Part shown: positions 1,377-25,199 of the stretch, piece by piece | Layout: the number at the start of each line of letters is the position of its first letter | Position numbering within the stretch: position 1 is the stretch's first letter | IMG/VR virus record: IMGVR_UViG_3300006875_000143 | Location: 1-25,812 of that record | Strand: one strand, 5' to 3' | Origin: a virus | Length of the DNA stretch: 25,812 nucleotides | Notes under the pieces: generated by a model | Database searches by the model: none | The model's input: the letters and a program-made list of their open reading frames with translations, nothing else | Told to the model about the DNA's origin: nothing | Position numbers and translations under genes: made by a program

Positions 1377-1819
1377 GGCTGCAGCCAAGCACCATCAAGG
1401 CCGCTTGCCAGTTCGTCCGCGACGCGCACCGACACCACAAGCCTCCGCAGGGTGGATTGTTTGCCGTGGCGTTGGCCGATGATGCCGGGACGGTGCTTGG
1501 CGTTGCCATTGTCGGACGGCCGGTTGCGCGGCATTTGCAGGATGGGTGGACGGCCGAGGTGACGAGGGTTGCGGTTGTGGATGATGCCCGCAACGGATGT
1601 TCCATGTTGTATGGCGCCGCACGCAGAGCAGCCAAGGCCCTCGGGTATCGTCGGCTGATTACCTACACCTTGGAAAGCGAGGGAGGCGCCAGCCTCCGTG
1701 CCTCCGGTTGGCTCAACGAAGGACAGGCTGGCGGTGGAAGCTGGAGCGTTCCCAGCCGCCCGCGCTCGGATAAGCACCCAACGTGCAAAAAAACACGCTG
1801 GAGCGTTGCGCTTGAGTAG
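1373..1819 (+). CDS. XF1762 family protein (GNAT-like)
   Basis: A 148-aa protein starting at GTG 1373 in a GTGA overlap with the preceding stop. It carries the conserved blocks of the XF1762 family seen in many phages: the FVRDAHRHHKPPQGG segment near residues 14-28, GVAIVGRPVARHLQDG near residues 43-58, EVTRVAV, the NGCSMLYGAARRAAKALGY helix, and GGGSWSVPSRPRSDKHPT near the end. The fold is thought to be related to GNAT acyltransferases; the reaction and partner are unknown to me. It sits between the small-terminase candidate and the large terminase, and its last eight bases overlap the proposed terminase start. Family recognition is strong; function is open. Confidence 0.85.
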   Translation: MRLQPSTIKAACQFVRDAHRHHKPPQGGLFAVALADDAGTVLGVAIVGRPVARHLQDGWTAEVTRVAVVDDARNGCSMLYGAARRAAKALGYRRLITYTLESEGGASLRASGWLNEGQAGGGSWSVPSRPRSDKHPTCKKTRWSVALE

Positions 1820-3308: not shown

Positions 3309-3327
3309 CTCTTGCTAAGGAGGCCAC

Positions 3328-5403
3328 ATGGGAAACCCGGACACCTATTGGGCGGCAGACGACACCGAGACTTGCATCGAGGCCGCCATGGCTCGGCGGC
3401 GCGAATACCGCGACTGGCTTACGCGCACCGGACGCATTGGCCGCATGCAGCGCAGCCTCCGCGCCTACTACGGCTACACGCCCATGGGTGACGGGGATAC
3501 CTCCGTCATTCTGCAGGGCGGCGAGCAAGGCGAAATGGCAGACCTTGCCTGTAACCATTTCGCTGCGCTGGTGCGTCAGGCGTTGGTGCTGATTACCTCT
3601 GACAAGGCAGCGTTTAAGGCTGTTGCCGGAAACTCTGACTACAAGAGTTTGGCGCAAGCCGCCCTGGCTGACGGCCTGCTGGAACACTATGACCGCAAGC
3701 TCCACGTTTCCGACATTGAGGGCGCCGCCGCCTTTCGCTCGCTTCTCATGGGAGAGGGTTACGTTTCGGTGACGTGGGACACCGAGGCTGGCGAGACTTA
3801 CGGGCTGGACCCTGAGTCTGGCCAAGCTATCCGCGAAGGGGACTTGTCCTTCCGCGTCTTCTCCCCGCTGGAGGTGGCCTATGACGTAGCCGCCACGCAG
3901 GGCGAGCGGCCATGGATGCTGCTGCAGACGCGCCGCAACAAGTGGGATTTGGTGGCACAGTACCCGGACAAGAAAGACGGCATCCTCGGCTCCGAGCGCC
4001 TGCGCGACGATTACGACTGGATGACTTGGACGCTGGACCAGTTCAAGCGCAGTGACGACATTGTGAACGTGTACGAGCTGTACGTCCCGCCGAGCGCGGC
4101 CGTCCCGGCTGGCCGCCTGGTCATCTTCGTGGATGGCAAGACGTGGCTCTTTGACGGCCCTCTGCCGTATGACAGCGTGCCCGTTTACGGAATGATGCCG
4201 GATGAAACCATCGGCGTTTCCGCTGGGCACACGTCCACGTTTGACTTGCTCGGCATGCAGCAAGCTGTGGATATGTGCGCCACGATTGCCACCACCAACC
4301 TGCAAGCCGGTGGCGTGGTTAACTTTTGGGCGCCGTCTGCCAACGACTTGAACGTGCGGCAGATTTCGGGAGGAATGAACTTCATTAACAGCCCGGTCAA
4401 GCCCGAGGCCCTTAATGGTGTGGCTATGTCGCCAGAGGTTGGCCGGTGGGCCACCCAATACGTTTCGTGGATGCAGGCTATTTCAGGCATCAACAGCGCG
4501 GTGCGTGGAGACCCGGACAAGGGCATGCCCGCGCAGGCCATGGCGTTCCTTCAGGCGCAGGCCATCCAGTTCCACAGCGGGCTGCAGAAGGGCTTTCAGC
4601 GGCTCCGCGAGCAGGTGCGCACGGCCAACATCGAACTGCTCAAGCGCTACGCCAACAGTAAGCGCGTGGCCCTCATTGCGGGCAAGGCGACCGGCTACAT
4701 GCGCCGGGAGTTTACTGCCGACGACTTGCGCGACATTGACCGCGTTACGGTGGAGGCCATCAATCCTGCGCTTCGCACGATGGCCGGCAAGAAGGCCGTT
4801 GCCGACGAGCTGCTTCAGCGCGGCATGCTGCAGACGCCGAACCAATACATTCTGCTTCTTACAACTGGCAGGCTCGAACCGCTTTTCGAGGGAGAGGAAG
4901 CCAACCTGATGCGCATCCGGCGCAATAAGGAGTTGCTGCAAGCCGGCATTGGCCTGCCTCCCGTGGCAACGGGGCCAGACGGCATGCCGCTGGTGGACCC
5001 TGTTACTGGCCTTGCGCAGTTTGCCGACGACGGCGCCCAGCATGTACGGCCGCTTAAGACGGACACGCATTGGTTGGATATCCCCGAATATCTGGCCGTG
5101 TTGGCTATGCCGGACGCACGAGAGCGGCCCGAGGTGGTGCAAGCCGTTACGGGGGTTGTGGAATACCAACTTGCCCTCTGGCGCAGCATGGACCCTGCGT
5201 TGATTGCCGTGTTGAAGGGTCAGCCGGCGCCGATGCCCGCAGCGCCGCCGCCGCCTCCAGCGCCTCCCGGGCCTACGCCGGCCCCTGGCATCGGGCCTAT
5301 TGCTGGTGCGCCTCCGTCCGAGGTTGCGCCGGCCATCAACCTTCCGCAACTGCCGCGCACGCCAGGCGGCGAGGTTCCACCCATTGCAGGAGTTAACGCC
5401 TAG
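3328..5403 (+). CDS. Portal protein (P22-like podovirus head-tail connector)
   Basis: A 691-aa protein forming the ring through which DNA enters and leaves the capsid. It follows the large terminase and precedes the scaffold and coat genes, the conserved portal position. The N-terminal part has the usual RREYRDWLTRTGRIGRMQRS and YYGYTP region, then the ILQGGEQGEMADLACNHFAALV segment and VSVTWDTEAGE, then the central long helix region (QAMAFLQAQAIQFHSGLQKG) before the C-terminal barrel and helices. The last ~60 residues are a Pro/Ala/Gly tail (from about residue 636), probably disordered. Size is close to the P22 portal (about 725 aa). ATG 3328 has a strong AAGGAGG. Assignment rests on position, length and general pattern, so the portal call is firm but the exact subfamily is not. 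Confidence 0.88.
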   Translation: MGNPDTYWAADDTETCIEAAMARRREYRDWLTRTGRIGRMQRSLRAYYGYTPMGDGDTSVILQGGEQGEMADLACNHFAALVRQALVLITSDKAAFKAVAGNSDYKSLAQAALADGLLEHYDRKLHVSDIEGAAAFRSLLMGEGYVSVTWDTEAGETYGLDPESGQAIREGDLSFRVFSPLEVAYDVAATQGERPWMLLQTRRNKWDLVAQYPDKKDGILGSERLRDDYDWMTWTLDQFKRSDDIVNVYELYVPPSAAVPAGRLVIFVDGKTWLFDGPLPYDSVPVYGMMPDETIGVSAGHTSTFDLLGMQQAVDMCATIATTNLQAGGVVNFWAPSANDLNVRQISGGMNFINSPVKPEALNGVAMSPEVGRWATQYVSWMQAISGINSAVRGDPDKGMPAQAMAFLQAQAIQFHSGLQKGFQRLREQVRTANIELLKRYANSKRVALIAGKATGYMRREFTADDLRDIDRVTVEAINPALRTMAGKKAVADELLQRGMLQTPNQYILLLTTGRLEPLFEGEEANLMRIRRNKELLQAGIGLPPVATGPDGMPLVDPVTGLAQFADDGAQHVRPLKTDTHWLDIPEYLAVLAMPDARERPEVVQAVTGVVEYQLALWRSMDPALIAVLKGQPAPMPAAPPPPPAPPGPTPAPGIGPIAGAPPSEVAPAINLPQLPRTPGGEVPPIAGVNA

Positions 5404-6919: not shown

Positions 6920-8191
6920 ATGGCAACTGTTAACACGACTTCGACGATGACGGGGTTTTTCAAGGAGATTTACGCGCAGGAGGTGTTGGACCTCACCGCG
7001 CCCATTTTGAAGGTGAGCAACAAGATTAAGTTCACCGAGGCCACTATGGTGGGCAACAAGTACCACCAGCCGGTTGACGTGGCGCTCGAGCACGGCATCA
7101 CGGCGGCGGCCGCCAACAGCGGCGCGGTTTCGCTGCTGACGCCGGTTGCGTCCATTCTGCAGGACGCGCAGGTTGAGGGCGCGCAGATTTTCGGCCGCGC
7201 CCAGGTGGACTATGAGGCCATGTTCCGCGCCACCCAGGCCGGCAAGGCGGCTTTCGGTTCCGCCACCAAGCACGTTGTTAAGCGGCTGGCCACCTCGGTT
7301 GCCAAGCGGCTTGAGATTTCCATGCTGCACGGGCAGCGCGGCATCGGCGCTGTGACGGCCACCAGCGGCAGCTCCACGTCCCGCACCTACACCGTGTCTG
7401 ACGAGTCCTGGGCGGCTGGCATTTGGGCTGGTTCCGTCAACGCCACGCTGGACTTTTTCGCGGCGGCGCTGACCGGCAGCAAGCTGAACAGCAACGCGGC
7501 CGTGGTTGTGGCGTCCGTCAACATCAACAACAAGACCATCAGCGTCACCGGTAACGCCACTGACCTCTCGGCCATCGACACCGAGATTTCGTCCAACGGT
7601 TCCGCCAACGTCTTTTGGGAGACTTTCTCGCCGTCTACCGAAATGGCAGGACTGGATAAGATTCTGAGGAACACCGGCACGCTGTTCAACATCAACGCGG
7701 CCACCTACGAGGTGTGGAGCGGCAACCTCTACAGCTCGTCCACGGGCACGCTGTCCATGGGCAAGCTGCTGGAGGCGCTGGCCACCCCGGTGGCCTTCGG
7801 TGCCGAGGGCGACTACCTGGCGGTCGTCAGCCCGAAGGCGTTTGAGGTTCTGAACACGGACCTCGCCGCGCTGCGGATGCTTGATAGCTCCTACGGCAAG
7901 AAGGGCCAGAATGGCTTCGGGTCCATCACCTACTACTTCCAGAATGGGACGCTGGAGATTATGGCGCACCCGCTCCAGAAGGACGGCCTCTGCCACGTCT
8001 TCAACCCGTCCGAGGCCAAGCGCATCGGTGCGACGGACCTCACGTTCATCACCCGGCGCGGCTCCGAGGATGCGCTTATCCTTGAGCTGTCCGGCTCGTC
8101 TGGCGCGGAAATGCGCTGCTACGTCAACCAGGCCCTCTTTATCGAGGCGCCCCGGCGTACCAGCGTGCTTGCCGGCATCACCTACGCCTAG
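6920..8191 (+). CDS. Major capsid (coat) protein, HK97-fold type
   Basis: A 423-aa protein following the scaffold gene. The N terminus (FFKEIYAQEVLDLTAPILKV) and the KRLATSVAKRLEISMLHGQRG helix match coat proteins of podovirus-type phages, where this helix is the spine of the HK97 fold. Residues about 185-235 hold a beta-rich insertion (AVVVASVNINNKTISVTGNA), like the small inserted domains found in many coat proteins. The C terminus (ITRRGSEDALILELSGSSG, then QALFIEAPRRTSVLAGITYA) is beta-rich as expected. Codon use is strongly biased to C- or G-ending codons, more than in neighbours, fitting very high expression. GAGG lies upstream of ATG 6920, and a strong terminator follows the stop. Coat function is well supported by position, length and pattern. 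Confidence 0.88.
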   Translation: MATVNTTSTMTGFFKEIYAQEVLDLTAPILKVSNKIKFTEATMVGNKYHQPVDVALEHGITAAAANSGAVSLLTPVASILQDAQVEGAQIFGRAQVDYEAMFRATQAGKAAFGSATKHVVKRLATSVAKRLEISMLHGQRGIGAVTATSGSSTSRTYTVSDESWAAGIWAGSVNATLDFFAAALTGSKLNSNAAVVVASVNINNKTISVTGNATDLSAIDTEISSNGSANVFWETFSPSTEMAGLDKILRNTGTLFNINAATYEVWSGNLYSSSTGTLSMGKLLEALATPVAFGAEGDYLAVVSPKAFEVLNTDLAALRMLDSSYGKKGQNGFGSITYYFQNGTLEIMAHPLQKDGLCHVFNPSEAKRIGATDLTFITRRGSEDALILELSGSSGAEMRCYVNQALFIEAPRRTSVLAGITYA

Positions 8192-9072: not shown

Positions 9073-10047
9073 ATGGCGTGGCTGACTAGTGATTTGTTGG
9101 CTGACGTTCGACGCAGCGGCATGCTGCCGGACTCCGCGCCCTCGGGCGTTTCTGATGCTGACATTCTCGCGCAAGCGAACAAAGAGCTGCAGACGCGCAT
9201 GTTGCCGCTCGTCAACAGCGTGCGCGAGGAGTTTTACGTTCAGTCCCAAGTGGTGCCGCTGGTAGCAAACCAGCAGTTTTATCGCATCCCTGGGCGCAGC
9301 ATTGGCAACCGGCTGCGGGACGTGCAACTGCAATTGAGTGACGGCAGCCTGCAAAACCTTGCGCGCATTGCGCCAGAGGCCGTGCCGGAAATGTCTAGCG
9401 TGACGCCTTCCGTCACGCCTTGGGGTTACTACCTTGAGTCCGACAGCGTGATGTTGGTGCCGACGCCCAGCACCGCATCCGGCTCGCTGGTGCTGAAATA
9501 CCTCTTGCGGCCTAACTGGCTCATTACGCACAACGACAACCACACGCCGCACGTCATTGCCGTTACCAACAACGGAAACGGCACCACAACTATTACGCAC
9601 ACCGGAAGCGGCGGCTTCAACAGCATTGCCGCAGGCTCGCTGGACATTGTGAGTTTTAATCCGCCGTTTCGCACGGTGATGATTTCCACCACGCCCACGG
9701 CGCACGCTACCGGCACCATTACGGTGGCAACGTCAGCGTTGCCCTCAGACTTCACCACGGCCAACTTTGGCGGTGGAGCAGACAAGGGCGCCATCATTAG
9801 CGCCGCCGAAACGAGCAGCGTTGTGCAGGTGCCGCCTGAGCTGCAGATGGTGCTTAACCAGCGCGTGCTTTGCCGTATCCTTCAATCCATTGGCGACCTG
9901 GAGGCCCTGCAGGCCGCAGAGGCCAATGCGGCCCAGATGGAGCGGGACGCGGTGGGCTTGCTTGCCAACCGCACCGAGGGTGAACCTAAAAAGGTTGTGG
10001 GCCGCCTACTGTCTCAGCCACGCCGCCGCCTCGGGTACTGGTTCTAA
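9073..10047 (+). CDS. Head-tail adaptor protein (podovirus type, putative)
   Basis: A 324-aa protein between head genes and the large tail protein. The N-terminal LLADVRRSGMLPDSAP...DADILAQANKELQTRMLP is the usual opening of phage adaptor proteins that dock under the portal (role like P22 gp4 or T7 gp11). The middle contains FYRIPGRSIGNRLRDVQL and WGYYLESDSVMLVPTP, and the end a helix (LQMVLNQRVLCRILQSIGDL, EALQAAEANAAQMERDAVGL) and a basic tail ending in GYWF. A beta-rich insertion (residues about 155-235) makes it longer than many relatives. GGGGAGGAG lies upstream of ATG 9073. Role inferred from pattern and gene order. Confidence 0.7.
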   Translation: MAWLTSDLLADVRRSGMLPDSAPSGVSDADILAQANKELQTRMLPLVNSVREEFYVQSQVVPLVANQQFYRIPGRSIGNRLRDVQLQLSDGSLQNLARIAPEAVPEMSSVTPSVTPWGYYLESDSVMLVPTPSTASGSLVLKYLLRPNWLITHNDNHTPHVIAVTNNGNGTTTITHTGSGGFNSIAAGSLDIVSFNPPFRTVMISTTPTAHATGTITVATSALPSDFTTANFGGGADKGAIISAAETSSVVQVPPELQMVLNQRVLCRILQSIGDLEALQAAEANAAQMERDAVGLLANRTEGEPKKVVGRLLSQPRRRLGYWF

Positions 10048-10050
10048 GCC

Positions 10051-12504
10051 ATGCCTAGCCAGAGCGTCCTCAATGTGGTTGCCAAAGGGCTGGTAACGGC
10101 GCCTAACCCGCTGCTTATCCCCAAGGACGCGCTGGTTGTCGCTGACAACATCGTCCTAGACCGCCCTGGCTTCATTCAGAGCCGACGAGGCTTCAAGAAA
10201 TATACAAACGCTGTTGGCGGTGACGTGTGGGCCGTTGCGCCGTTTCAAGGGCGCATCCTGGCTAACTACGGGACCGCAACGGCTGCGGTCAACCTGCGCG
10301 TCAACAGCAGCAACGATGGCACCGGCAGTTGGTCAGCCGTCAGCGGCACATACACCAACACCGTGACTGACGGCTTTCGGATGCACACGGCAGAGGTGCT
10401 CGACCACCTCTATTTGACGTGCGCACAGGGCATCCATCGACTCAGCACGGCCAACACGGCAGAGCCGGCAGGCATGCCCAAGGCCATCGGCATCGACCTA
10501 TCAGGCCCGGCCGCCGTGCTTACCGGAAGCGGTGGTTTCCTTGCTGACGGCCAGTGCGTTGCCTACCGGGCTGTTTTCGGACGTTCCATCGGTGGCGCCT
10601 TGCGCCTGGGAAGCCCCAGCAGCCGAACGGTTGTTGCCAATGCGGCGCAGACGAGCGGCTATTCAGCAGCCACAGCGCGAAATACGGTCATTCGCGTGCT
10701 GCTGCCAAAGGCCAACAACACCGCCTCCACTGCCCTTACAACTGACTATTTCCTGCAGTTGTACCGCAGCGGGCAGGTTGCCAACGGGCAGACGCCCAGC
10801 GACGAAATGCAGCTGGTGTTTGAAGCCTACTTGACGGCCGGCAACATCAGCGCGGGATACGTTGACGTGACGGACAAGCAGCCCGACAGCCTGCGCGGCG
10901 CGTACCTCTACACCAACCCCAACACCGGGGAGGAAGGTGTGCGGCCCGGCATCCTCAATGCCAATGAGCCGCAACCTCCTGCGGCAGACATAGCTTGGTG
11001 GCGGGACGTCATGTGGTACGCGGCGAATGAAAACTTTGGCCGCACGCGCATCCTGTTTCAGATTCTCGGCACGGGCAGCGGTGGGCTTACTGTAGGCGAC
11101 ACGTTCACCATTGGCGGCGCCTCTACCCGCACCTACACGGCCATTGCGCCGGGCACGCCATCTGCCGGCCAATTTGTTGTGGAGTCCAACTATGCGGCCA
11201 GCGTCAACATTGAGCGCACAGCAACCAACCTAGTTGCCGCCATCAACAAAGACAGCGGCAACACTGGTTTTTATGCCTACTACATCAGCGGAGCCGCGCC
11301 GGACGCGCCGGGCAAGGTGCTGCTTGAGTCTCGCCTGGACACTGGCGCCGGCTTGAGCGCTGGACTCACCTACACCGGTAGCAGCCCCAACGCTTTTGCG
11401 CCCTCGCTGTCTGCGCCTGCCTCCCCGAGCGCTTACCTTGAGTCTAACCAGCTGTGGTTTTCCAAGCCTGGACAGCCGGAAGCGGTGCCGTCCGTCAACT
11501 TCCTAGAGGTTGGCCCGGCAGGTAGCGCCATCCTGCGTGTGCTGCCGCTGGGCAACCAGCTTTATGTGCTGTCCACGTCTGGCGTGTATCGAGTGCTAGG
11601 CGACAACTTTACCAACTTTACCGTGGACCCGGTGGATTTGACCGCCATCTGCGCAGCCCCGGAAAGCGCTGTCACGCTCGACGGCAGCTTGTTTTTCCTT
11701 ACCAACCAGGGCGCCGTCGAAGTAACCGAAGGCACGCTGGCCTACATTAGCGGCCCGATTGACTCGGACTTGCGCGAGCTGCTGCAAAGCGTGCTTTACG
11801 ACCAGCGCAACGGCTCTAGTCCGCTCAAGCTTTACGCTTTCAGCGTGGCGCACCAGCTCGACCACCGTGTGATGTTTTGGCTACCAATTGGCATTGACTC
11901 CACAGACTGTGGTTTTGCCTACGTCTGGGACACTCGCGCAAGGGCGTGGAGCCGCTGGTATCGAGGCGACACTATTGCCTCCTATGCATTCAGCTGTGGC
12001 TGTTATTCTCAGTCTGGTCCAACAGCCGTTGGGTTGACGATGGCCGAGCAAAACGGCGCCAGCGCTAACGACTGTTTCTGCTACGTCGAGCGGAGAGAGC
12101 TAACGACGAACGACTTTCAAGACAGCATTGCTGGAAGCGCCACCACCATAGCCATCAACCGCAGCGTCAAGTGGGCATACCAGGATGCCAACGATGCCAG
12201 CACGGGTAAGCACTGGCGAGAGGTGCAGTTTTTGTTTGGCGACTCTCGGCCCACCAACATCACGGTGGTACTGGACACTGAAATACAGGACGTAAACAAC
12301 ACGGAAGAAACCAGCACGACCTCCACCACCTACACAACGCCGGTTAACAACAAAATGCATCGGCTGCCGGTTGGGCAAAACTGCGGACGTGCCGCACGCC
12401 TGGGGGCACGCCTAACCTGCAATGCTAAACAGCAGGGCTTCGACGTGGCCGGGTTTGCGCTTCACTTCCGTGCCTTTGGGCCGAGGCTTACCCGTGGGCC
12501 TTAG
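10051..12504 (+). CDS. Tail stabilisation/tail tube-nozzle protein (P22 gp10-like role)
   Basis: A large 817-aa beta-rich protein starting three bases after the adaptor stop. The opening (VVAKGLVTAPNPLLIPKDALVVADNIVLDRPGF) is typical of podovirus tail tube or nozzle proteins, which form the end of the short tail. Repeated blade-like segments (VWAVAPFQGRILANYG, HLYLTCAQGIHRLST, QLYVLSTSGVYRVLGDNF, SLFFLTNQGAVEVTEG) suggest a beta-propeller. Residues about 339-445 are an inserted domain with TVGDTFTIGG and ATNLVAAINKDSGNTGFYA, resembling the beta domain of the protein at 8268. The C-terminal part carries YVWDTRARAWSRWYRGD. The last 11 bases overlap the next gene. Function is by family-like pattern and position. 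Confidence 0.72.
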   Translation: MPSQSVLNVVAKGLVTAPNPLLIPKDALVVADNIVLDRPGFIQSRRGFKKYTNAVGGDVWAVAPFQGRILANYGTATAAVNLRVNSSNDGTGSWSAVSGTYTNTVTDGFRMHTAEVLDHLYLTCAQGIHRLSTANTAEPAGMPKAIGIDLSGPAAVLTGSGGFLADGQCVAYRAVFGRSIGGALRLGSPSSRTVVANAAQTSGYSAATARNTVIRVLLPKANNTASTALTTDYFLQLYRSGQVANGQTPSDEMQLVFEAYLTAGNISAGYVDVTDKQPDSLRGAYLYTNPNTGEEGVRPGILNANEPQPPAADIAWWRDVMWYAANENFGRTRILFQILGTGSGGLTVGDTFTIGGASTRTYTAIAPGTPSAGQFVVESNYAASVNIERTATNLVAAINKDSGNTGFYAYYISGAAPDAPGKVLLESRLDTGAGLSAGLTYTGSSPNAFAPSLSAPASPSAYLESNQLWFSKPGQPEAVPSVNFLEVGPAGSAILRVLPLGNQLYVLSTSGVYRVLGDNFTNFTVDPVDLTAICAAPESAVTLDGSLFFLTNQGAVEVTEGTLAYISGPIDSDLRELLQSVLYDQRNGSSPLKLYAFSVAHQLDHRVMFWLPIGIDSTDCGFAYVWDTRARAWSRWYRGDTIASYAFSCGCYSQSGPTAVGLTMAEQNGASANDCFCYVERRELTTNDFQDSIAGSATTIAINRSVKWAYQDANDASTGKHWREVQFLFGDSRPTNITVVLDTEIQDVNNTEETSTTSTTYTTPVNNKMHRLPVGQNCGRAARLGARLTCNAKQQGFDVAGFALHFRAFGPRLTRGP

Positions 12505-14410: not shown

Positions 14411-15793
14411 ATGGCCGTTAACGAGGAAGTTGAAGCGTACCTCCGCAGCCTTTACCAACAGCCCAGCGCAGAGTTTGTTCCTTTTGCCTCCCCGGAGGCG
14501 GCCGTTGCCTTTCAGCCGGACTTGACGCCAATGGCACGCCGTCCTCGCTTTGGTAGCATGCTCGAGGGCGAGGTGGACCCGGTTACGGGCCAGACGCTAC
14601 GCAAGCCAGCCATCCAAGCCGTGCGGGAGGCTCGCATGGACGAGTTGGCCCCGATGGAGGCCGAGGCCGAGGCTGCCTCGTTGGCCGCTGGCCCCGCGGC
14701 GCTTGGTTTGTCGCCTTTGTCGTCCGTGGGAGCTGCGCCATCGACTCAAACGGCCATGGACCCGCTAACGGCTAGCCTTGGCATGCAGGGCGCAGGTGGC
14801 CCCATGCCGTATATGGATGCTCTGGCAGCTGCTCAACGAGAAGATGCGCTGGCCGCAGCGTTTCGCCGTGTTGGCGACCCGACAGAGCAGCTTGCGCGCA
14901 TTCAAAGCCGTGGCATCTATCAGCCGATGGGGCTGACGGCTATGCCGTCTGCCGTGTCCGAGCTGCAGCAGCGTCAGGCCGCCGTGTCTGACTTCTTGCG
15001 GCAGCAGAGAGAATCTGCGCTTTCAGCGGCACAGCTAGATGCTATGCGTGCGCTTGCTGAACAGCGCAGGCGCGAACCGGCCGAGCGTGTGCCTCTGGAG
15101 ACTGAGGCGCAGCGCAGAGAGCGACTTGCCAAGGCGGCTAAGACTGAAAAACAAACCGAGTTGCTTGGAAAGCCCAAGCCCGGAAAGGCTGCCGCCGAGG
15201 TTAAGCTTGACCCTGCAGCAACGAAACTTCGAACGGAGTTCAATCAGCTGCCAGAGGTTAAGACGTTCAACGAGGTTGACGCCACATATAGGAAAATGCA
15301 ATCGCTGTCAGAAAACCCATCTCCCGCTGGGGACATTGCGCTCGTTTTCAGCTTCATGAAGCTGATTGACCCGGGCAGCACTGTGAGGGAGGGCGAGCAG
15401 GCGCAAGCGCGCAACGCCGCTGGTGTGCCGGACCAGGTCCGCAACCAATACAACCGCCTGCTAAGTGGTGAGTCCTTGACGGCAGACCAGCGCAAGGACT
15501 TTTCTGCGCAGGGGCTTAGGGCTAGAAACGTCGCGGCGGACAAGTTTAACCAGCGGGCGGATTTCTATAGCGACCTTGCCAGGCGTTCTCGCGTCAAGGT
15601 GGAGGACGTGCTGCAGCGCGTCACCGGCCCGGGTGGCGGTGCTCCAGAAGCAACCCAAGCGGCCGCGGCACCAGCTCCGGCCGGGATGGTGCGCATCAAG
15701 GACAACAAGACGCAGCGCGTGAAGGAGTTTCCAGAGGCCGACGCCATGAAACTGCTACAGGACAAGTCCGGCCGTTTTGAGGTGGTGCGCTAA
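14411..15793 (+). CDS. Putative ejection protein 3, 460 aa
   Basis: ATG 14411 comes two bases after the previous stop. The protein is Ala/Glu/Arg-rich and largely helical, with a Met-, Pro- and Gly-rich section around residues 80-140 (MDPLTASLGMQGAGGPMPYM). Residues about 285-400 (LRTEFNQLPEVKTFNEVDAT, IALVFSFMKLIDPGSTVREG) match a pattern known from the ends of several phage internal or injection proteins, where a FxxxK.DPxS.VREGE stretch is conserved. Its stop TAA shares a base with the next ATG (TAATG), so translation is coupled. P22 gp20 (471 aa) holds a similar place and size; that parallel is by layout only. Confidence 0.62.
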   Translation: MAVNEEVEAYLRSLYQQPSAEFVPFASPEAAVAFQPDLTPMARRPRFGSMLEGEVDPVTGQTLRKPAIQAVREARMDELAPMEAEAEAASLAAGPAALGLSPLSSVGAAPSTQTAMDPLTASLGMQGAGGPMPYMDALAAAQREDALAAAFRRVGDPTEQLARIQSRGIYQPMGLTAMPSAVSELQQRQAAVSDFLRQQRESALSAAQLDAMRALAEQRRREPAERVPLETEAQRRERLAKAAKTEKQTELLGKPKPGKAAAEVKLDPAATKLRTEFNQLPEVKTFNEVDATYRKMQSLSENPSPAGDIALVFSFMKLIDPGSTVREGEQAQARNAAGVPDQVRNQYNRLLSGESLTADQRKDFSAQGLRARNVAADKFNQRADFYSDLARRSRVKVEDVLQRVTGPGGGAPEATQAAAAPAPAGMVRIKDNKTQRVKEFPEADAMKLLQDKSGRFEVVR

Positions 15794-17979: not shown

Positions 17980-18184
17980 GCCGCTCAACCTTTATGCGTG
18001 CCAACTCGCCTTCGACAGCCGACAGCCGTTCCATGAGGGCCAAGTCTGCGGCTGGCGGCGGCGCTGGCTTGTCGTCTTTTCGTTGGAAGGCCAGCCACGC
18101 CAAAAAGGCAAGACGCGCCTGCCAAGCGGCAAAGGACAAGCCAAGGCCTAACGAGAGTCCCGAAACAACTGCCAAGGCGCTCAC
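17963..18184 (-). CDS. 73-aa membrane protein with C-terminal coiled coil (inverted island)
   Basis: Read from GTG 18184 to TAG 17965-17963. The start shares one base with the stop of the upstream minus gene (TAGTG) and has GAGG eight bases before it; the longer frame from 18367 would cover that gene. Residues 1-35 give one or two close hydrophobic segments (SALAVVSGLSLGLGLSFAAW, LAFLAWLAF), then a basic/Pro linker (QRKDDKPAPPPAA) and a short amphipathic helix (LMERLSAVEGELARIKVERL). No family recognised. It converges on and overlaps the ejection gene by 17 bases. A small membrane partner of the 86-aa protein, perhaps an exclusion or lysis-timing function, is possible but unproven. Confidence 0.6.
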   Translation of the reverse strand: MSALAVVSGLSLGLGLSFAAWQARLAFLAWLAFQRKDDKPAPPPAADLALMERLSAVEGELARIKVERLTGRR

Positions 18185-18444
18185 TAACGACGCCTCAGGG
18201 GATTGATGGTGAAAATCAACGCCTTTGCCACCTGGGCGCGAAAGTCTCTGGCGAAAGAGGCAAGTCCCTCGTTGCGCTCTGAGTCTACCGCAACAAAACG
18301 TCCGTCCTTGGTAATGGCTTGGAATCGCGTAAACTTTCCATCTCCATGGCGGCGAAAACCGAGCCAAACAATTTCCCCGGCCATGTGCTGCTCAATAACG
18401 CTGCTGGATTCCGGCCCCTTGTCCTGCTTTGCTCGCTGTGCCAT
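18184..18444 (-). CDS. 86-aa hypothetical protein (inverted island)
   Basis: Minus-strand gene from ATG 18444, 47 bases from the start of the divergent lysis gene. The product looks like a compact beta-alpha domain: IVWLGFRRHGDGKFTRFQAI and GRFVAVDSERNEGL suggest two hairpins, then a helix (LASFARDFRAQVAKALIF) and a basic end (NPLRRR). No family recognised. It is translationally coupled to the membrane protein downstream. Its ribosome site is weak (only GACGA nearby) and no convincing promoter is seen, so its expression signal is unclear. Protein-like composition and coupling support it being real. Confidence 0.6.
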   Translation of the reverse strand: MAQRAKQDKGPESSSVIEQHMAGEIVWLGFRRHGDGKFTRFQAITKDGRFVAVDSERNEGLASFARDFRAQVAKALIFTINPLRRR

Positions 18445-18491
18445 TTCGTCAGACTAGCGGACAATCACTCAAAAGAAAACGAGTCCTGTCA

Positions 18492-18743
18492 GTGTCTCCA
18501 GAGCTAATCGCACAGTTTATTACAGGCGGCGTAACGGCCCTGTTGGCGTGGAGTCTCAACCGCAACCTGTCCGGCCTTGACGCAACAATCAAGGACGTTG
18601 CCGGTAAGGTTGACGAGTTACACAAGGCCGAGACAGCAATGCAGGTGAAGGTTGCCGAGTTGTCCATTCGTGTCCAGCACACCGAGGCCATGCTTGCGGG
18701 TATTGAACTCGAGCTGGAGAAGCTTAAAGAGGCTAGGGGTTGA
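18492..18743 (+). CDS. 83-aa membrane-anchored coiled-coil protein (lysis module)
   Basis: I start at GTG 18492 (MSPELIAQFITGG); the longer frame from 18429 crosses the divergent gene. An N-terminal hydrophobic helix (IAQFITGGVTALLAWSL, residues 6-22) is followed by a long charged coiled coil (residues 30-80, IKDVAGKVDELHKAETAMQV and IELELEKLKEAR). This build is seen in XhlA-like membrane proteins and in spanin- or holin-like accessory lysis proteins. It overlaps the endolysin start by four bases (TTGA), so it belongs to the lysis cassette. Exact role, holin, spanin-like or anchor, cannot be decided. Confidence 0.62.
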   Translation: MSPELIAQFITGGVTALLAWSLNRNLSGLDATIKDVAGKVDELHKAETAMQVKVAELSIRVQHTEAMLAGIELELEKLKEARG

Positions 18744-19192
18744 GCCGGCTCATTCAGCACTTCCTAGCTGTCGTCGAAGCGCAGGAGGGGTTGCCGTATG
18801 TGTGGGCCGGCAAGGGTGAGTGCATAGCCGGCAAACGCCATGACTTTGTGACGCAGGGGCGGCGGTTGGTGTTTGACTGTAGCGGGCTGGTGACGTGGTC
18901 CCTACGGCAATGTGGCTGGAAAAGTCCTCGAGAGTTTTCGTCAAACGGGATGTGGATGCATTGGAGAAGGACGGACAAGCCACATCCAGGCGACTTCATC
19001 GTTTACGGAAAGCCACAGCTTGCTAGCCACGTTGAGGTTTTGATGCCGGATGGCCGTTCTTTCGGAGCCATCGGCGGAAACAGCAAAACCTCAAAGCCAA
19101 CGCCAGGCGCGTGCGTGCAGTACCGGAAGAAGAAGCGGCTAGACGTTCTTGGGTACTTAACCAACCCGCTAAGGCCAGAGGAAGATGCGTAG
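18740..19192 (+). CDS. Endolysin, NlpC/P60 (CHAP-like) cysteine peptidase
   Basis: Degrades peptidoglycan by cutting peptide bonds at the end of infection. The 150-aa product is one NlpC/P60 domain: an early PYVWAGKGE block (residues 19-27), the catalytic cysteine in RLVFDCSGLVTWSL (Cys47), the catalytic histidine in QLASHVEVLMPDG (His97), and a polar third residue near GGNSKT (Asn114). GDFIVYGKP lies between them, as expected. It lacks a signal peptide, so it needs a holin, and lacks a wall-binding domain, common for Gram-negative hosts. Start is TTG 18740 overlapping the previous stop, with AAAGAGG seven bases upstream. Confidence 0.88.
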   Translation: MSRLIQHFLAVVEAQEGLPYVWAGKGECIAGKRHDFVTQGRRLVFDCSGLVTWSLRQCGWKSPREFSSNGMWMHWRRTDKPHPGDFIVYGKPQLASHVEVLMPDGRSFGAIGGNSKTSKPTPGACVQYRKKKRLDVLGYLTNPLRPEEDA

Positions 19193-19298
19193 GCCTCTGC
19201 CAAGGCTAGGCGAGGCGGAGCGCATTCGCCTGTTAAGGTTACGAGGGTTAGACGTAAACCTAAAACCGTTAAACCTGACTCCAGAGGAGAGACAAGCC

Positions 19299-19553
19299 AT
19301 GAGCGATACGACTTCCCCCACCGTTGTAGAGCAGCCCGCCGTCCAGCAGCCGCTTCCCCAGCCTGCCCAAGGCGCCGTCGTCAACCAGAAGGCCGTCCGG
19401 CTGCTGACGCTGGTGGGCGTGGTGGCCGCTGCGGCCCTTGCCGCCTCCGAGGCTGGCGTGCTGCCTCCGTGGGTGGGTGCGGTGGCGCAGGCCGTCATTG
19501 GCCTGCTGGCCGCGGTGGGTGTGGCTAGCCCCGGCATTCGTAAGCAGGCCTAG
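19299..19553 (+). CDS. Holin candidate, 84 aa (possible longer form from 19185)
   Basis: After a polar, Pro/Gln-rich start (residues 1-25) come two hydrophobic segments, VRLLTLVGVVAAAALAASEA and VGAVAQAVIGLLAAVGVA, separated by the short turn GVLPPW, and a basic end (GIRKQA). This hairpin in the membrane and the place right after the endolysin suit a holin, which opens the inner membrane. ATG 19299 has AGGAG nine bases upstream. The frame is open further back to ATG 19185, overlapping the endolysin by eight bases and adding 38 residues with many arginines (RIRLLRLRG); GAGG there is only three bases from the start. Either or both could be used. No specific holin family is recognised. Confidence 0.6.
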   Translation: MSDTTSPTVVEQPAVQQPLPQPAQGAVVNQKAVRLLTLVGVVAAAALAASEAGVLPPWVGAVAQAVIGLLAAVGVASPGIRKQA

Positions 19554-19556
19554 TCA

Positions 19557-22500
19557 ATGCGCTACCGTGCCGCCGCCGTGGTGCTGGCCTTGGCTGCTGC
19601 GGCGGCCATCGGCCAAGTGCCGATGTATTCGGATTACCCGTGGGGGCTGGTGCAGAATGGCACCGACCAGGGGCCGGTCTACAACCTGGACTGCCAGCCA
19701 CCGCTGGTGTGCAGCTCCCCAAGCTACGGCAACGGACGCATTCAGCTTGGCGACGGAGGCGTGCTGCCCATCATCGTGGCGTATGCCGCGGACGCAGGCT
19801 TTGCGAACTCAGCGGCCGTGGCCGACTTGGCGCTTTATGCCAGGGACTCAGGCTTTGCGGATTTGTCCGCACAGTCATTCTTCGCCTTTGACGCCGGGTT
19901 TGCTTACACCGCTGGAAGCGCCAACACCGCCGCTTATGCCTTCGACGCTGGGGCCGCCAACTATGCCACGGCCGCTGGCGTGGCCATCTATGCGCTGGAC
20001 GCAGGGCAGGCTGATTACGCACCTGTGGCCGGCTATGCGGCCGCCGCGGGCACGGCCAACACCGCCAACACGGCCGACCTTGCGGCGTATGCCTACGACG
20101 CCGGCCGCGCCAACTATGCGGACACAGCTGGTGTTGCGACTTATGCTTTGGATGCTGGCAGGGCGAACTATGCGGACACGGCCGGTGTGGCTGCATACGC
20201 TTTGGACGCCGGCCGCGCCAACTACGCCGACACGGCTGGAAGCGCCGGAACGTCAACAACGGCTCAATACGCCTTCGATGCTGGCAACGTCGTCTGCGTC
20301 GGATGCATCGTTGCCGACCGCATCGGCCTCGCCGCGGTCATCCGAGAGAAGATTCAAGCAGGAGCCGTAAATCACACCGTCATTGAGGATGGCGGCATCC
20401 TGGGGAATAACATCATCCCCGGAGGCGTTACCTCTACCCAAATTGCAACGGGAGGAGTCGCAACAGCCAACATTGCCAACGGTGCCGTTACCGAATCGCA
20501 GATTGGGGCGCTTGCCGTCACCGAGGGAAAACTGGGCGCTTTGGCTGTTACGGAGGGCAAGCTGGGCGCAGGCGCAGTTACCAACACAAAACTGGGCGAC
20601 CTGTCTGTTTCAAGCGGGAAACTGCAAGACTCAGCCGTGACGACGGCAAAGCTAAACGCCCTGGCGGTGGATTCAACCAAGCTGGCTGCTGGTGCTGTCA
20701 CGACCGCGAAGATTGCAGCCAATGCCGTAACGACCAATGAACTTGGCGCCGCAGCTGTTACGTCAACCATCCTTGCTGATGGCTCTGTCCTCGAGGCCAA
20801 GGTTGCAACGTCCGCCATCACCACAACCAAACTTGCGGATATGGGTGTCACGGCCCCAAAGCTGGACGACGGCATCCCGCTTACCGCCTATGACGAAGCA
20901 GGTGTTGCAGGCATCAGCTCCAGGTCCACGGCCACTAACGCCACCAAGGGCAGCTGGGACGGCTCTACCGGATACATTCGCTTCACGGTTGGCTCCGGTG
21001 TCACAAACCCTCAAGTTTCAACCGGCCTCTACACCGGAACCAGCACAAACCTACTGACACCGAAGGCCGTCATGCGTTACCGGCTGGCTGGAGACTTTGC
21101 CGCCAAAGCCCCAACGGCCATGACGGCCAAAAACACCGCAAACGTGGCACAGACGGCCTCTGCGGTTTTTGTCAGCGACGGCAACTGGCACACCGCCGTT
21201 TTTGACATTTCTGGATGGACAACGGTTGGCACGTTGCGGATTGACCTTACAACTGCAACAGACGCAACTGCGTATTGGGATATTGCCTATGTGGGCACCG
21301 GCATTCCTGGTGGCGGAACTGGGGCGCTCATTTCCAAGGCTGGCAACGTCGGCGTTGGCATAACCCCCACCAGCAAACTACATGTTGATGGAACTATCAC
21401 CATTGGCACCAGCACGAACACCTATCAGGCTGGTGTGCTTGGCTATACCGACGCAAATTGGGGTTTCATCTACCGTCCGCCTCAAGCCGGTGCAATTGCC
21501 GCACACAATTTCGAGGCTTATGACGGAAGCGACCTTTTGACCATCACAAATGGCGGATATGTCGGCATTGGAACGCTAACCCCTGGAAGTTTTCGCCTTG
21601 CGGTGGTTGGCCCAGCTGCCGGCACCGCCACTGGCCCGGTTGTGTTTTCAACCCCTGGAACCGCACAAGGAGAACGCAGCGCGCTGGCAATGCTTGGAAC
21701 ATTCCAGGCAACACCAGGCGACAACACGCCGCGTCGAGCCGCTGATGTTGTTGCGGGCTTCAATGGTGGAAATTGGGGCACGGAATATATGTCCCTAAAC
21801 GTCGGCAACAACGGCAGCGGTAACGACGCCTTCGCTTTGACGGCAGAAAAAGTTCGAATTACCAGCGGAGGCGACGTTGGCATCAGCGTCACGGCGCCTC
21901 GCTCAAGGATGCATGTCTACGGCACCAGCGCCACTCCCGTCGGCAGCGGCAGCACGGAAAAGGCAAACCTCATCGTTGAGGGCAGCGCCACCAATGCGCT
22001 GAAGATGGGGACGGACCCGGCCTCGCCTTACGGCTCGTGGATTCAGAGCACGGACAGGACCAACAACGGCATTCAGTATCCACTGGCATTGAACCCAATG
22101 GGCGGGAAGGTGGGAGTAAACACCCTTGCCCCGGAAGAACAACTGGAAGTCAAAACCGGAACCACCGCTTACGGTGTTTTGCACAGCGACGGCACACGCA
22201 AGGTGGGAAGTTACGTCGACACCTCGGGCGGCTGGTATGGCACCAAGTCCAACCACGACCTGCACCTATTCACCAACAACGGCGCCAAGCGGCTGACTGT
22301 CACTACGGCTGGCAACGTGGATATCGCTAGCTTTGGGACGCCTGCCTCAGAAACTCACGTTTGCAGCGACACCACCGGAGTGCTGGTGCTGTGCAGCGCG
22401 TCCGACGAGCGCAAGAAAGAGAAAATTCGGAGCCTTGGCAATCCGCTAAAGCTGGTGCTGCAGATGCGCCCGGTGCGCTACGAGTGGAAGGACAAGGGCC

Positions 22501-22766
22501 GAATGGGCAAGGGCGAGGATATTGGTTTTGTCGCCCAGGAGATAATGACGGTGCTGCCTGAGGTGGTGGGCAACAACAGCGACGGAACCTACCTCATTCA
22601 TTACGACAAACTAACCGCGGTGCTCGCCGGGGCCATTCAGGAGTTATACGAGGACCGCACATGGCTAGCGAAGCGGGTGCAGGCACTTGAGGACCGCGCC
22701 CAGGCCGCGGAGGACAAGCTGGCGCAGCTTGAGGCAAGGCTTGCAAAGCTGGAGGGTGCCAAGTGA
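19557..22766 (+). CDS. Large tail fibre with signal-like N terminus, repeats and S74 chaperone domain
   Basis: A 1069-aa receptor-binding fibre candidate. Residues 1-20 look like a secretion signal (MRYRAAAVVLALAAAAAIGQ), unusual for a phage fibre. Cys46/Cys52 follow. Residues 79-243 carry DAG repeats with an 18-residue period (DAGRANYADTAGVA). After Cys247/Cys250 comes a 10-residue repeat (residues about 290-438, AVTEGKLGAL, AVTTAKLNAL) typical of fibre shafts. Residues about 440-945 include a beta domain and blocks such as GNVGVGITPTSKLHVDG, common in trimeric fibres. From Ser949 (SDERKKEKI) a peptidase S74 intramolecular chaperone domain (VRYEWKDKG, DIGFVAQEI) leads to a C-terminal coiled coil; S74 domains help trimerise the fibre and cut themselves off. 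A second in-frame Met (residue 23) lacks a good ribosome site. Fibre/S74 call is strong; secretion is open. Confidence 0.87.
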   Translation: MRYRAAAVVLALAAAAAIGQVPMYSDYPWGLVQNGTDQGPVYNLDCQPPLVCSSPSYGNGRIQLGDGGVLPIIVAYAADAGFANSAAVADLALYARDSGFADLSAQSFFAFDAGFAYTAGSANTAAYAFDAGAANYATAAGVAIYALDAGQADYAPVAGYAAAAGTANTANTADLAAYAYDAGRANYADTAGVATYALDAGRANYADTAGVAAYALDAGRANYADTAGSAGTSTTAQYAFDAGNVVCVGCIVADRIGLAAVIREKIQAGAVNHTVIEDGGILGNNIIPGGVTSTQIATGGVATANIANGAVTESQIGALAVTEGKLGALAVTEGKLGAGAVTNTKLGDLSVSSGKLQDSAVTTAKLNALAVDSTKLAAGAVTTAKIAANAVTTNELGAAAVTSTILADGSVLEAKVATSAITTTKLADMGVTAPKLDDGIPLTAYDEAGVAGISSRSTATNATKGSWDGSTGYIRFTVGSGVTNPQVSTGLYTGTSTNLLTPKAVMRYRLAGDFAAKAPTAMTAKNTANVAQTASAVFVSDGNWHTAVFDISGWTTVGTLRIDLTTATDATAYWDIAYVGTGIPGGGTGALISKAGNVGVGITPTSKLHVDGTITIGTSTNTYQAGVLGYTDANWGFIYRPPQAGAIAAHNFEAYDGSDLLTITNGGYVGIGTLTPGSFRLAVVGPAAGTATGPVVFSTPGTAQGERSALAMLGTFQATPGDNTPRRAADVVAGFNGGNWGTEYMSLNVGNNGSGNDAFALTAEKVRITSGGDVGISVTAPRSRMHVYGTSATPVGSGSTEKANLIVEGSATNALKMGTDPASPYGSWIQSTDRTNNGIQYPLALNPMGGKVGVNTLAPEEQLEVKTGTTAYGVLHSDGTRKVGSYVDTSGGWYGTKSNHDLHLFTNNGAKRLTVTTAGNVDIASFGTPASETHVCSDTTGVLVLCSASDERKKEKIRSLGNPLKLVLQMRPVRYEWKDKGRMGKGEDIGFVAQEIMTVLPEVVGNNSDGTYLIHYDKLTAVLAGAIQELYEDRTWLAKRVQALEDRAQAAEDKLAQLEARLAKLEGAK
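20088..20249 (+). repeat. Three tandem 54-base repeats in the tail-fibre gene
   Basis: Three consecutive units of 54 bases encode YAYDAGRANYADTAGVAT, YALDAGRANYADTAGVAA and YALDAGRANYADTAGSAG (residues 178-231). Older, diverged copies with the same 18-residue period extend upstream to residue 79 (DAG at 79, 112, 130, 148). The DNA copies differ mostly at third positions, so the protein repeat is better kept than the DNA. Confidence 0.85.
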
Positions 22767-23137: not shown

Positions 23138-23357
23138 AGTAAATGAGGCCGGCCAGTGTCACGCTCGGCGGCATGCGCTCCACGCGCACGCAGCAGAGGC
23201 ACACGCCAGAGGCACCACGGCTGGAAAACCGCCATAGCGACTCGGCCACACGCTCGGCTCGGCCGCAGTAGCTATAGCGGCGGCCTGCCTCAAAAGCGTG
23301 CGTAATTCCGTCCCCGCGCCTGGGGATTCGCCATTCAATCTCAGGCATCCTCGCCAC
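23136..23357 (-). CDS. Small CxxC-type protein, 73 aa
   Basis: Last gene of the leftward recombination operon. The start is GTG 23357, or three codons later at ATG 23348; both overlap the end of the nuclease gene, and neither has a strong ribosome site, so coupling to the nuclease is likely. The product is Arg-rich and contains YSYCGRAERVAESLWRFSSR then GVCLCCVRVERM, giving Cys31, Cys53, Cys55 and Cys56, possible metal ligands. It ends in VTLAGLIY. No family recognised. Position suggests an accessory part in DNA processing, which is only inference. Confidence 0.6.
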   Translation of the reverse strand: MARMPEIEWRIPRRGDGITHAFEAGRRYSYCGRAERVAESLWRFSSRGASGVCLCCVRVERMPPSVTLAGLIY

Positions 23358-24534
23358 TCTTCTGCCGCCTTTCCTTAACCTCCAGCTTGCTTGTGGCTGT
23401 GATTCCGCCGAGCTGGGCCAGCCGGTCTATGATGGCCCTCTTTGCCGCTGCCAGCGTTGCCTTGCGTCCGGCTGCCTTCTCGGCGGCAACCCACTGGCGG
23501 CAAGCCTCCTCGATGCTGGACTTACTGGCGGTGAGCTCCACGGCTACATCAGCCGCCGCAGGCCCCAACACGTCCAGCGCGGCGGCGTGCGCCTTGCGGC
23601 CGTCCAGCGACTCGCGCACGGATTCAACCTCGGCCAGTACCCACCCACCCGGAAGGCTGACGGACTCCCGTGCGGCGTACTCCTTCAATGCGGCCTCTAC
23701 CCTGTCCAGCACAGCGCGAGCGTCCTTTATGCGCTGCCAGGCGGCGGCGGCCGTGGACTGGTCCAGCACCGGCACGTCCATCATTTCCGTGACCAGCGCG
23801 GCCTTGGCCGGACACACCGGAAATGCCGGGCAGTAGCGACACCACGGGCCTTCTTTTGGCGCCACTACCTGGGCCTCCACGAGCTCCCGGGTTTCAAGCA
23901 GCTGCTCGCGCACCGTGGCCAGTTCCAGCGCGTCCAGCGGCTCCAAGTCCAGCCATGCGCGGCCGTCCGAGGTGTCCACGCGCAAATGGCCGACCTCGGC
24001 CGCGTCCACGCCATAGACGCGGGCAAAGGCCAGCGCGAGGGCGCGTAACTGTCCAGAGGCGGCGGGGTTAGGGAGCCAGCCCCGGCCCGTCTTCACGTCA
24101 ATGACGTACACCACGCCGTCATGCACGCGCACCAGGTCTGCGGTGCCCACCACGGCGTTGCGGCCCCGGTGGCCGTAGCTTCGGGCTGCAGCGTCCAGCA
24201 CCTCGGCCGTGTCCTTGTCCATATCGTACAGGACCGCCGTTTCCGGCCTCCACCCGGCCTGTAGGTCCACGGGCCAATTGTCCGTGTCCAGCGCGAGGGC
24301 AGTTTCACGCAACTCGGGTGGCATCCGCTGGGCCGCCTCTGCCGGCGTGGCGCCTCGGGCTATGGCCTCCACATAGGCGTGCAGGGCACGGCCGGACTCT
24401 GCCCACGGCGACGATGGCGCCGTCACCTGCGGCAGCACGCAGGAGGTAGGGCAGGCCAGCGCCCGAGTCAACCCACTGGCGGTGGGCAGGCGCGGCCGGT
24501 GGCGCTCGCGGGCGAGGGATGCGTCCTGGCTCAT
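23341..24534 (-). CDS. PD-(D/E)XK nuclease, RecB/Cas4-like with Fe-S cysteines (DUF2800-like)
   Basis: A 397-aa exonuclease candidate that would make single-stranded DNA for the annealing protein next to it. His52 (RALHAYVEAI), Glu98 (WRPETAV), Asp133 (GTADLV) and Asp146/Lys148 (VIDVKTGRG) form the PD-(D/E)XK core. Cys28/Cys32 in LACPTSCVL lie before the core, and Cys242, Cys245 and Cys251 in WCRYCPAFPVCPAK after it, the split arrangement that holds a 4Fe-4S cluster in AddB- and Cas4-type nucleases. The pattern matches phage DUF2800 proteins. The C-terminal third is helical (SKSSIEEACRQWVAAEKAAG). Its ATG overlaps the ERF gene's stop (ATGA), indicating coupled synthesis. Confidence 0.88.
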   Translation of the reverse strand: MSQDASLARERHRPRLPTASGLTRALACPTSCVLPQVTAPSSPWAESGRALHAYVEAIARGATPAEAAQRMPPELRETALALDTDNWPVDLQAGWRPETAVLYDMDKDTAEVLDAAARSYGHRGRNAVVGTADLVRVHDGVVYVIDVKTGRGWLPNPAASGQLRALALAFARVYGVDAAEVGHLRVDTSDGRAWLDLEPLDALELATVREQLLETRELVEAQVVAPKEGPWCRYCPAFPVCPAKAALVTEMMDVPVLDQSTAAAAWQRIKDARAVLDRVEAALKEYAARESVSLPGGWVLAEVESVRESLDGRKAHAAALDVLGPAAADVAVELTASKSSIEEACRQWVAAEKAAGRKATLAAAKRAIIDRLAQLGGITATSKLEVKERRQKSGEDA

Positions 24535-25199
24535 GCCTGCCCCCGCAGTTCCTTCTGGCGGCTAGCAAACGCCTTGCGCACCTCTGGCACGGCCGTAACG
24601 CCCAACTGCTTGATGATGCGGGTTGCCGCCTGCAGGTCTTCCGGGGTGCCGCACTCGGCAATTGCCAGTAGGGCACGCTCCATGGGGTCCGGCTCAGCCG
24701 AAGCAGGCGCGGCCGGCTGTGGTGCTGGCGTGGGTACGGGTTGGGGCGCGGGCTGCTCGCGCATGGGCTGGCGCCGCTGCACGGGCGGAAGCACCGGAGC
24801 GCTAGGACGCGTCCCGGCCTCTCCGTCGTCATCATCCTGGGCAATACCCACCAGCGCGGCCAGAGAGTAGCGCCGGGCATAGGTGAGCGCCGAGCCGTAG
24901 CCCTGCGGCGTCTTCTGGGCAACCGGCATCTGCAAGTCAGAGGACACCCACTCCCCAGAGGCATGCGCGAGGATGGACCGCACGCCCACCATGCCCTCGG
25001 CCTGCGTTACCTGCTGAATGACGGACAGCCCGTTAGCCGCCAGCGGCTCACGGATAGCGGACCAGACGGCGGCCAGGTCCGCATATCGCGTCTTGAAGTG
25101 GGGGTTTGTGGCGTCCTTGGTTGCAAACGTCATTTGGCCCTGCGCCTTAGCGAGTGCGGCAGCCAGGGCGGCAATGCTGGCGCTCATGCTGTCACCCAT
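24531..25199 (-). CDS. erf: ERF-family single-strand annealing protein
   Basis: Anneals complementary single strands in phage recombination, often for genome circularisation. The 222-aa product has the ERF opening (LAKAQGQMTFATKDATNPHF, KTRYADLAAVWSAIREPL), a middle with GVRSILAHASGEWVSSDL, and the hallmark GYGSALTYARRYSL (residues 100-113) followed by an acidic DDDDGE. A Pro/Ala/Gln linker (about residues 131-170) joins a small C-terminal helical piece (ATRIIKQLGVTAVPEVRKAF). Start ATG 25199 is backed by GGAGG six bases upstream and overlaps the 45-aa gene by eight bases. It precedes the PD-(D/E)XK nuclease in one operon, a classic exonuclease/annealase pair. Confidence 0.9.
   Translation of the reverse strand: MGDSMSASIAALAAALAKAQGQMTFATKDATNPHFKTRYADLAAVWSAIREPLAANGLSVIQQVTQAEGMVGVRSILAHASGEWVSSDLQMPVAQKTPQGYGSALTYARRYSLAALVGIAQDDDDGEAGTRPSAPVLPPVQRRQPMREQPAPQPVPTPAPQPAAPASAEPDPMERALLAIAECGTPEDLQAATRIIKQLGVTAVPEVRKAFASRQKELRGQA

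Follow-up and report, generated by a model that had tools for sequence, protein, structure and literature searches.

To our knowledge, tailed phages assemble in the cytoplasm, and their particles are taken to be built wholly in that compartment. The locus described here raises the question of whether a tail fibre can take another route. The window, by which we mean the whole 25,812-base IMG/VR virus record IMGVR_UViG_3300006875_000143, encodes a tail fibre, P0001, for which an initial annotation pointed to a signal-peptide-like start and closely paired cysteines, and offered two explanations: an N-terminal half of host origin, or passage of the fibre through the periplasm. Here we ask whether the leader is a real signal peptide and what it may mean for the assembly of the phage.

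A tail-fibre gene in the late operon of a short-tailed phage

The late genes of the window all run in one direction, and their order from terminase to fibre (Table 1) indicates a short-tailed phage layout. The host seems to be a soil or water bacterium. The ATG of P0001 lies 3 nt downstream of the stop codon of the preceding gene, which encodes the holin-like protein (63% in the sister phage described below), and the NlpC/P60 peptidase of the lysis region is related to Mx8 p72 (35%, E 1e-14) and Mx9 p20. Elsewhere in the window, the stretch just before the terminase, 1373-1819 (+), weakly matches the Pfam family of Mom DNA-modification proteins (20.7 bits against a cut-off of 27.1), an 86-aa reverse-strand ORF within the late operon at 18184-18444 (-) is 75% identical over 73 residues in the sister phage and has no family match, and a recombination pair composed of a PD-(D/E)XK exonuclease and an Erf-type ssDNA-annealing protein is encoded on the opposite strand at 23341-25199 (-).

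Table 1. Features of the late operon and of the fibre gene P0001, in window coordinates.
Feature	Position	Strand	Basis or remarks
Terminase	1698-3308	+	late gene, upstream of fibre
P22-like portal	3328-5403	+	late gene
Coat	6920-8191	+	late gene
SU10-like adaptor	9073-10047	+	late gene
Nozzle-like protein	10051-12504	+	late gene
Internal virion proteins	reach up to 17979	+	late genes
Internal virion protein	14411-15793	+	Mx8 p56 38%, E 8e-25; phrog_13634 E 4e-31
Short coiled protein, lysis region (spanin or XhlA-like, weak)	18429-18743	+	
NlpC/P60 peptidase (lysis)	18740-19192	+	Pfam NLPC_P60 E 4e-9
Two-helix membrane protein (holin-like)	19185-19553	+	hydrophobicity highest near residues 70 and 97
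Tail-fibre gene P0001, 1069 aa, signal-bearing, Peptidase_S74 end	19557-22766	+	ORF, Pfam, PHROG
Predicted Sec signal peptide, residues 1-19	19557-19613	+	MRYR n-region, 13-15-residue hydrophobic core, cut after AIG
Conserved module QxPMYSDYPWGLxQNGxDQGPVxNLxC, residues 20-46 (about 25 residues)	19614-19694	+	comparison with sister phage
Cysteine pair 46/52	19692-19712	+	P0002 counterpart pair 44/51
DAG repeats, units of about 18 aa	19779-20291	+	three 54-bp copies at 20080-20239, 76% matches
VCVGC, cysteine pair 247/250	20292-20306	+	sister fibre: NCSGC at 144/147
Fibre shaft repeats (AVTxxKL type), residues 250-439	20304-20873	+	tblastn and PHROG: many phage fibres
Cysteine pair 936/946, just N-terminal of the S74 cleavage site	22362-22394	+	cysteine positions
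Peptidase_S74 intramolecular chaperone, SDxxxK (S949, D950, K954)	22401-22568	+	Pfam and motif

P0001 is the sole late gene of the window that matches tail-fibre families in PHROG (best phrog_28766, E 2e-22), and its residues 949-1004 match Pfam PF13884 (E 2e-14, 53.9 bits against a cut-off of 22) with the SDxxxK motif described for S74 (PMC10769870). A C-terminal S74 chaperone with this motif is likewise found in the K1F endosialidase and the T5 L-shaped fibre. With the S74 domain, a phage-fibre-like shaft and a place in the late structural operon, P0001 works as a tail fibre by all the features tested, and its presence in the virion is predicted. The DAG-repeat stretch has no relative in IMG/VR.

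The leader resembles a Sec signal peptide and is translated

The fibre opens with MRYRAAAVVLALAAAAAIGQVPMYSDYPWG, its residues 1-20 being MRYRAAAVVLALAAAAAIGQ, and up to the predicted cut its N-terminus reads MRYRAAAVVLALAAAAAIG, followed by Q. This leader has the features of a Sec type I signal, namely a basic n-region, a hydrophobic core and small residues at -3 and -1. For scoring we used a home-made signal score that adds a cleavage matrix, the hydrophobic core and charge; its training set consisted of 22 textbook E. coli signals, which themselves score 17.6-26.6. P0001 scores 12.4 with the cut after Gly19, a modest value, below those of the textbook signals, in which the weak Gly at -1 has its part. 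A score of at least 12 is nevertheless reached by only 1 of the 150 ORFs of the window, namely P0001, so that an artefact of spurious ORFs in high-G+C DNA was rejected. Furthermore, of 343 start codons lying internally and in frame none attains 12.4, and among 2000 shuffled N-termini 7 do so.

We found the same contrast with other phage fibres. The control set comprised 80 IMG/VR S74 loci, 52 of them with complete 5' ends, each scored at whichever of as many as eight start codons gave the highest value; none of these 52 viral S74 fibres reaches 12 (highest 9.5), and a signal-like start is thus rare on viral S74 fibres. In the late genes of P22, LUZ24, BUCT555, ppBjS10J-1 and Mx4 there is no signal-like start on tail or fibre proteins, the matches in control phages being limited to the P22 membrane translocase and Rz1 spanin and to two small lysis-region proteins of the Bradyrhizobium phage. 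For comparison, scores of 11.6-15.4 are obtained for three plasmid-borne S74 ORFs of Bacteroidota, of which two carry plain secretion signals. Accordingly, the signal-like start first pointed out from the sequence holds up, and so does the statement that fibres normally have no signal; the parallel statement about cysteines does not, since ordinary fibres do contain them.

Next we examined whether the leader is translated. Base differences between the window and its sister phage fall on codon position 3 in 13 of 23 cases (P 0.019), and the codon differences are 9 synonymous versus 7 non-synonymous; this excess at the third position, together with the synonymous changes, indicates that the leader is translated. 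A second in-frame ATG (Met23) is kept in both phages. Ribosome-site pairing clearly favours Met1 over Met23 in the window (-4.4 versus -1.8) and hardly does so in the sister phage (-5.6 versus -5.1). Met23 as the true start was rejected on the codon-position bias and the ribosome-site comparison, and the annotated start of P0001 appears real because the sister phage keeps the same kind of leader in different letters.

A sister phage keeps the leader and the adjoining module

The sister phage, IMGVR_UViG_3300037189_018126, is 82% identical to the window phage in the portal, 72% in the coat and 65% in the nozzle. IMG/VR scans with the fibre N-terminus, portal, nozzle and cysteine module returned its contig, one portal-identical fragment and nothing else, and the NlpC scan gave two further weak matches. 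Its fibre, P0002, opens with MRVAAVALALVAALAVAQSPMYSDYPWGLLQNGVDQGPVWNLNC and reads MRVAAVALALVAALAVA up to the predicted cut, followed by Q, with a signal score of 20.1. The P0002 cut between A17 and Q18, preceded by Ala-x-Ala, aligns with that between G19 and Q20 in P0001. The close homologue thus starts with a leader and not at the conserved Met23; close homologues that all start at residue 23 or later were what the initial annotation had named as evidence against its reading.

Residues 20-46 are nearly identical in the two fibres and beyond them there is little in common: P0002 has ten cysteines and is without an S74 end, and the match found for its shaft is a Bdellovibrio MAT protein of solved structure, Bd2439 (8ol4, E 1e-5). 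A kept N-terminal end in front of a swapped body fits the docking end of a fibre, the conserved unit here including the leader, and residues 20-46 are likely, from this comparison, the attachment end of the mature fibre. In the sister phage, the locus 2758-4922 holds three further late genes, of 118, 420 and 184 aa, whose products combine signal-like starts with 4, 8 and 8 mature cysteines; the window has none of them at that place.

The initial annotation had also proposed a secreted protein of the host as a possible source of the N-terminal half. Scans of genome_contigs with the fibre N-terminus and the nozzle gave zero matches, and the residue 20-46 module was absent from the genome_contigs scan and from phage records, Myxococcota genomes lying outside the profile search. 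Wholesale capture of this half from the host is very improbable: in style its signal, its DAG repeats and its cysteine pairs recall host proteins, and secreted bacterial S74 proteins exist, but the leader and 25-residue module are common to the sister phage and the shaft repeats match phage fibres, which leaves the proposal unsupported. A fibre-like ORF without signal in the Silvanigrella phage CP017838 (portal 30%) was set aside as a comparator, being uninformative because it is not homologous to P0001.

Cysteines in signal-bearing late proteins are paired and enriched

P0001 has six cysteines (46, 52, 247, 250, 936 and 946) and no others. Six randomly placed cysteines would fall into three pairs of neighbours, with partners no more than 10 residues apart, with a probability of 7.5e-5, and the close pairing that had been read from the sequence is borne out. 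CxxC is present in none of the 80 viral S74 ORFs, and four named phage S74 fibres have no cysteines at the site of the 936/946 pair; in both CxxC and signal, P0001 therefore differs from the Peptidase_S74 fibres and spikes surveyed. Its density (6 in 1069 aa) is above the median of the IMG/VR S74 fibres (0.19 per 100 aa) and inside their range (maximum 0.93), so the cysteine content alone is not decisive.

Furthermore, we compared late proteins across six phages. The median number of cysteines per 100 aa past the cut is 2.58 in 21 signal-bearing or candidate late proteins versus 0.22 in 45 other virion proteins, an approximately tenfold excess (P 2e-9), and the number of mature cysteines is even in 18/21 of the former (P 7e-4) versus 12/20 others, P values that are optimistic because partly related proteins were counted as independent and the set, picked by eye and score in phages that were themselves found through signal-bearing proteins, was assembled around signals. 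Enrichment and even counts match what would be predicted for proteins folding in an oxidising compartment. Together, the leader and the paired cysteines suggest that the fibre likely passes through the periplasm.

Signal-like leaders on fibres of Mx8, Mx9 and uncultured phages

In the Myxococcus phages Mx8 (NC_003085) and Mx9, p64 and p14 ("putative tail fiber") begin with MRYLPSAAGLAVGVLLGVIISVSTPASA, a signal of 28 residues that ends in ASA, followed by TRNSVGTYTLPGGNPVVSGTTISSTWANSTLQDI. The domain behind the cut is an ordinary podophage fibre N-terminal domain, which begins at residues 1-8, with no leader, in the fibres of Stenotrophomonas phage BUCT555 (MPRNGSGTYLLPTGINPVVTQTLITSNWANTTMSDI) and Bradyrhizobium phage ppBjS10J-1 (MENATLPRQANGTYLPPANTAAVSGTTISST). 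The Mx8/Mx9 signal is therefore placed before a complete ordinary fibre, and its predicted cleavage would restore a plain N-terminus. The two phages are 98% identical in this region and count as one lineage. Further signal-like starts are found on Mx8 p66, Mx8 p67 and Mx9 p15; p67 (38819-39367), located among the late genes, is GDSL-lipase-like. Such starts as a trait of all M. xanthus phages were rejected: in the myophage Mx4 they are found on 0/29 late genes, which indicates that having M. xanthus as host does not by itself bring the trait with it.

Mx8 p64 and Mx9 p14 resemble P0001 in having a signal-like leader, in matching phrog_28766 and in adjoining lysis genes. They differ in the module after the leader (TRNxVGTYTLPGGNPVVSGTTISS...), in their length of 357 aa, in having only two cysteines, and in that no S74 end was seen. 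The Mx8 phages also share with the window the internal virion protein (p56), which is the main link to the myxophages, and the NlpC/P60 peptidase (p72); beyond these two no homologue was detectable by BLASTP (E 0.01), neither for the terminase nor for the portal or coat. The window phage is by its genes Mx8-like in part, related to Myxoctovirus by modules and not filed as a member.

A match to residues 29-221 of P0002 (37%) lies in an ORF of the uncultured podovirus MW202477. In both Manatee Spring phages, MW202477 and MW202637, signal-like starts and numerous cysteines are found together on several late proteins of tail type, including homologues of the phrog_5939 tail family (E 1e-13 and 1e-22) and of the phrog_3484 fibre family. 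In MW202637, a 146-aa protein encoded right after the major capsid gene (21412-21852) has a signal score of 18.2. A third homologue, P0003, has a short uncharged hydrophobic start only, below the acceptance level of the signal score.

Proposed export of the fibre and its attachment at lysis

Taken together, we favour, at a probability of about 0.55, the reading that P0001 is the receptor-binding fibre of an Mx8-like podophage, which bears a cleaved Sec leader, is exported and disulfide-bonded, and joins the virions at lysis. The sequences themselves show a translated and conserved leader, the paired cysteines, the S74 chaperone and, in Mx8/Mx9, the fusion of such a leader to an ordinary fibre N-terminal domain. 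Export via Sec, although well supported, is inferred, as are leader cleavage, disulfide oxidation and subsequent attachment to the virion. Under this hypothesis, the first 19 residues would act as a true signal peptide and direct the fibre to the periplasm, where it would trimerise with the aid of its S74 chaperone, form disulfides within the fibre, and be trimmed by signal peptidase and by S74 self-cleavage. At lysis the holin would breach the inner membrane and the NlpC/P60 peptidase the wall, the fibre would meet finished virions, and its conserved mature N-terminus would dock on the tail. Such late docking is plausible, as fibres commonly come last in the building of phage particles and spikeless P22 particles accept tailspikes in vitro. 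In the open-licence literature we found no published exported or signal-bearing tailed-phage fibres for this group.

It is conceivable, although unlikely, that P0001 is exported and is not a virion part at all but a protein derived from a fibre, displayed on or released from cells that are infected or lysogenic, which may for example mask receptors against superinfection or prevent progeny from sticking to debris, in a place comparable to that of lambda Lom. Bacteria do carry secreted S74 fibre-like proteins: the S74 proteins of Flammeovirga and Aureispira have signals, and so do the Bdellovibrio mosaic adhesive trimer (MAT) proteins, which share with P0001 a long trimeric fibre. In MAT proteins the signal peptide is followed by a shared beta-rich domain of about 130 aa, and the tips are exchangeable, with or without S74, with disulphides seen in some of them (PMC10769870). 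The MAT match of the P0002 shaft agrees with such a role, the solved chains of this comparison being tips only. However, MAT proteins are chromosomal predator adhesins displayed on Bdellovibrio, whereas P0001 sits in a phage late operon, and we do not file it as a MAT family protein. Lambda Lom likewise has a signal peptide and a gene between the tail spike and tail fibre genes (PMC12309495), but it is an outer-membrane barrel of the host cell and no fibre. Three considerations argue for a virion role instead: a podophage needs a receptor-binding protein and no other is recognised among the late genes of the window; a docking end would be expected to stay constant as fibre bodies are exchanged, and the module that follows the leader does so; and in Mx8 and Mx9 the signal precedes an entire N-terminal domain of a fibre.

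Another, improbable, explanation is that the leader does not work as a signal, either because the hydrophobic stretch stays on a cytosolic protein, for instance as a docking plug, or because translation starts at Met23. The modest score with Gly at -1 and the conservation of Met23 speak for it, and P22 gp7 shows that virion proteins can lose their N-termini in the cytosol (database record note). Set against it are the codon-position bias of a translated leader, the aligned cut site with its Ala-x-Ala and the score of the sister fibre, the independent Mx8/Mx9 leaders on a domain that functions elsewhere without one, and the cysteine enrichment. We therefore retain the exported, virion-bound fibre as the best explanation for P0001.

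A wider reading, which we put forward tentatively and rate somewhat short of even, is that in a podophage group including Mx8 and Mx9 the receptor-binding protein and other tail proteins may be exported, oxidised and matured in the periplasm and clipped onto capsids at lysis, that is, that the virion would be assembled in two compartments.

If true, a fibre that is exported and disulfide-bonded would break the rule of wholly cytoplasmic assembly in tailed phages; it would account for cysteine-rich fibres in environmental phages and would give phages a route to disulfide-stabilised receptor binders. Such a fibre could plausibly also link the fibres of phages with the fibre adhesins that bacteria secrete, the Bdellovibrio MAT proteins among them. 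The trait can be read in the cultured Myxococcus phages Mx8 and Mx9 as well, and is testable there.
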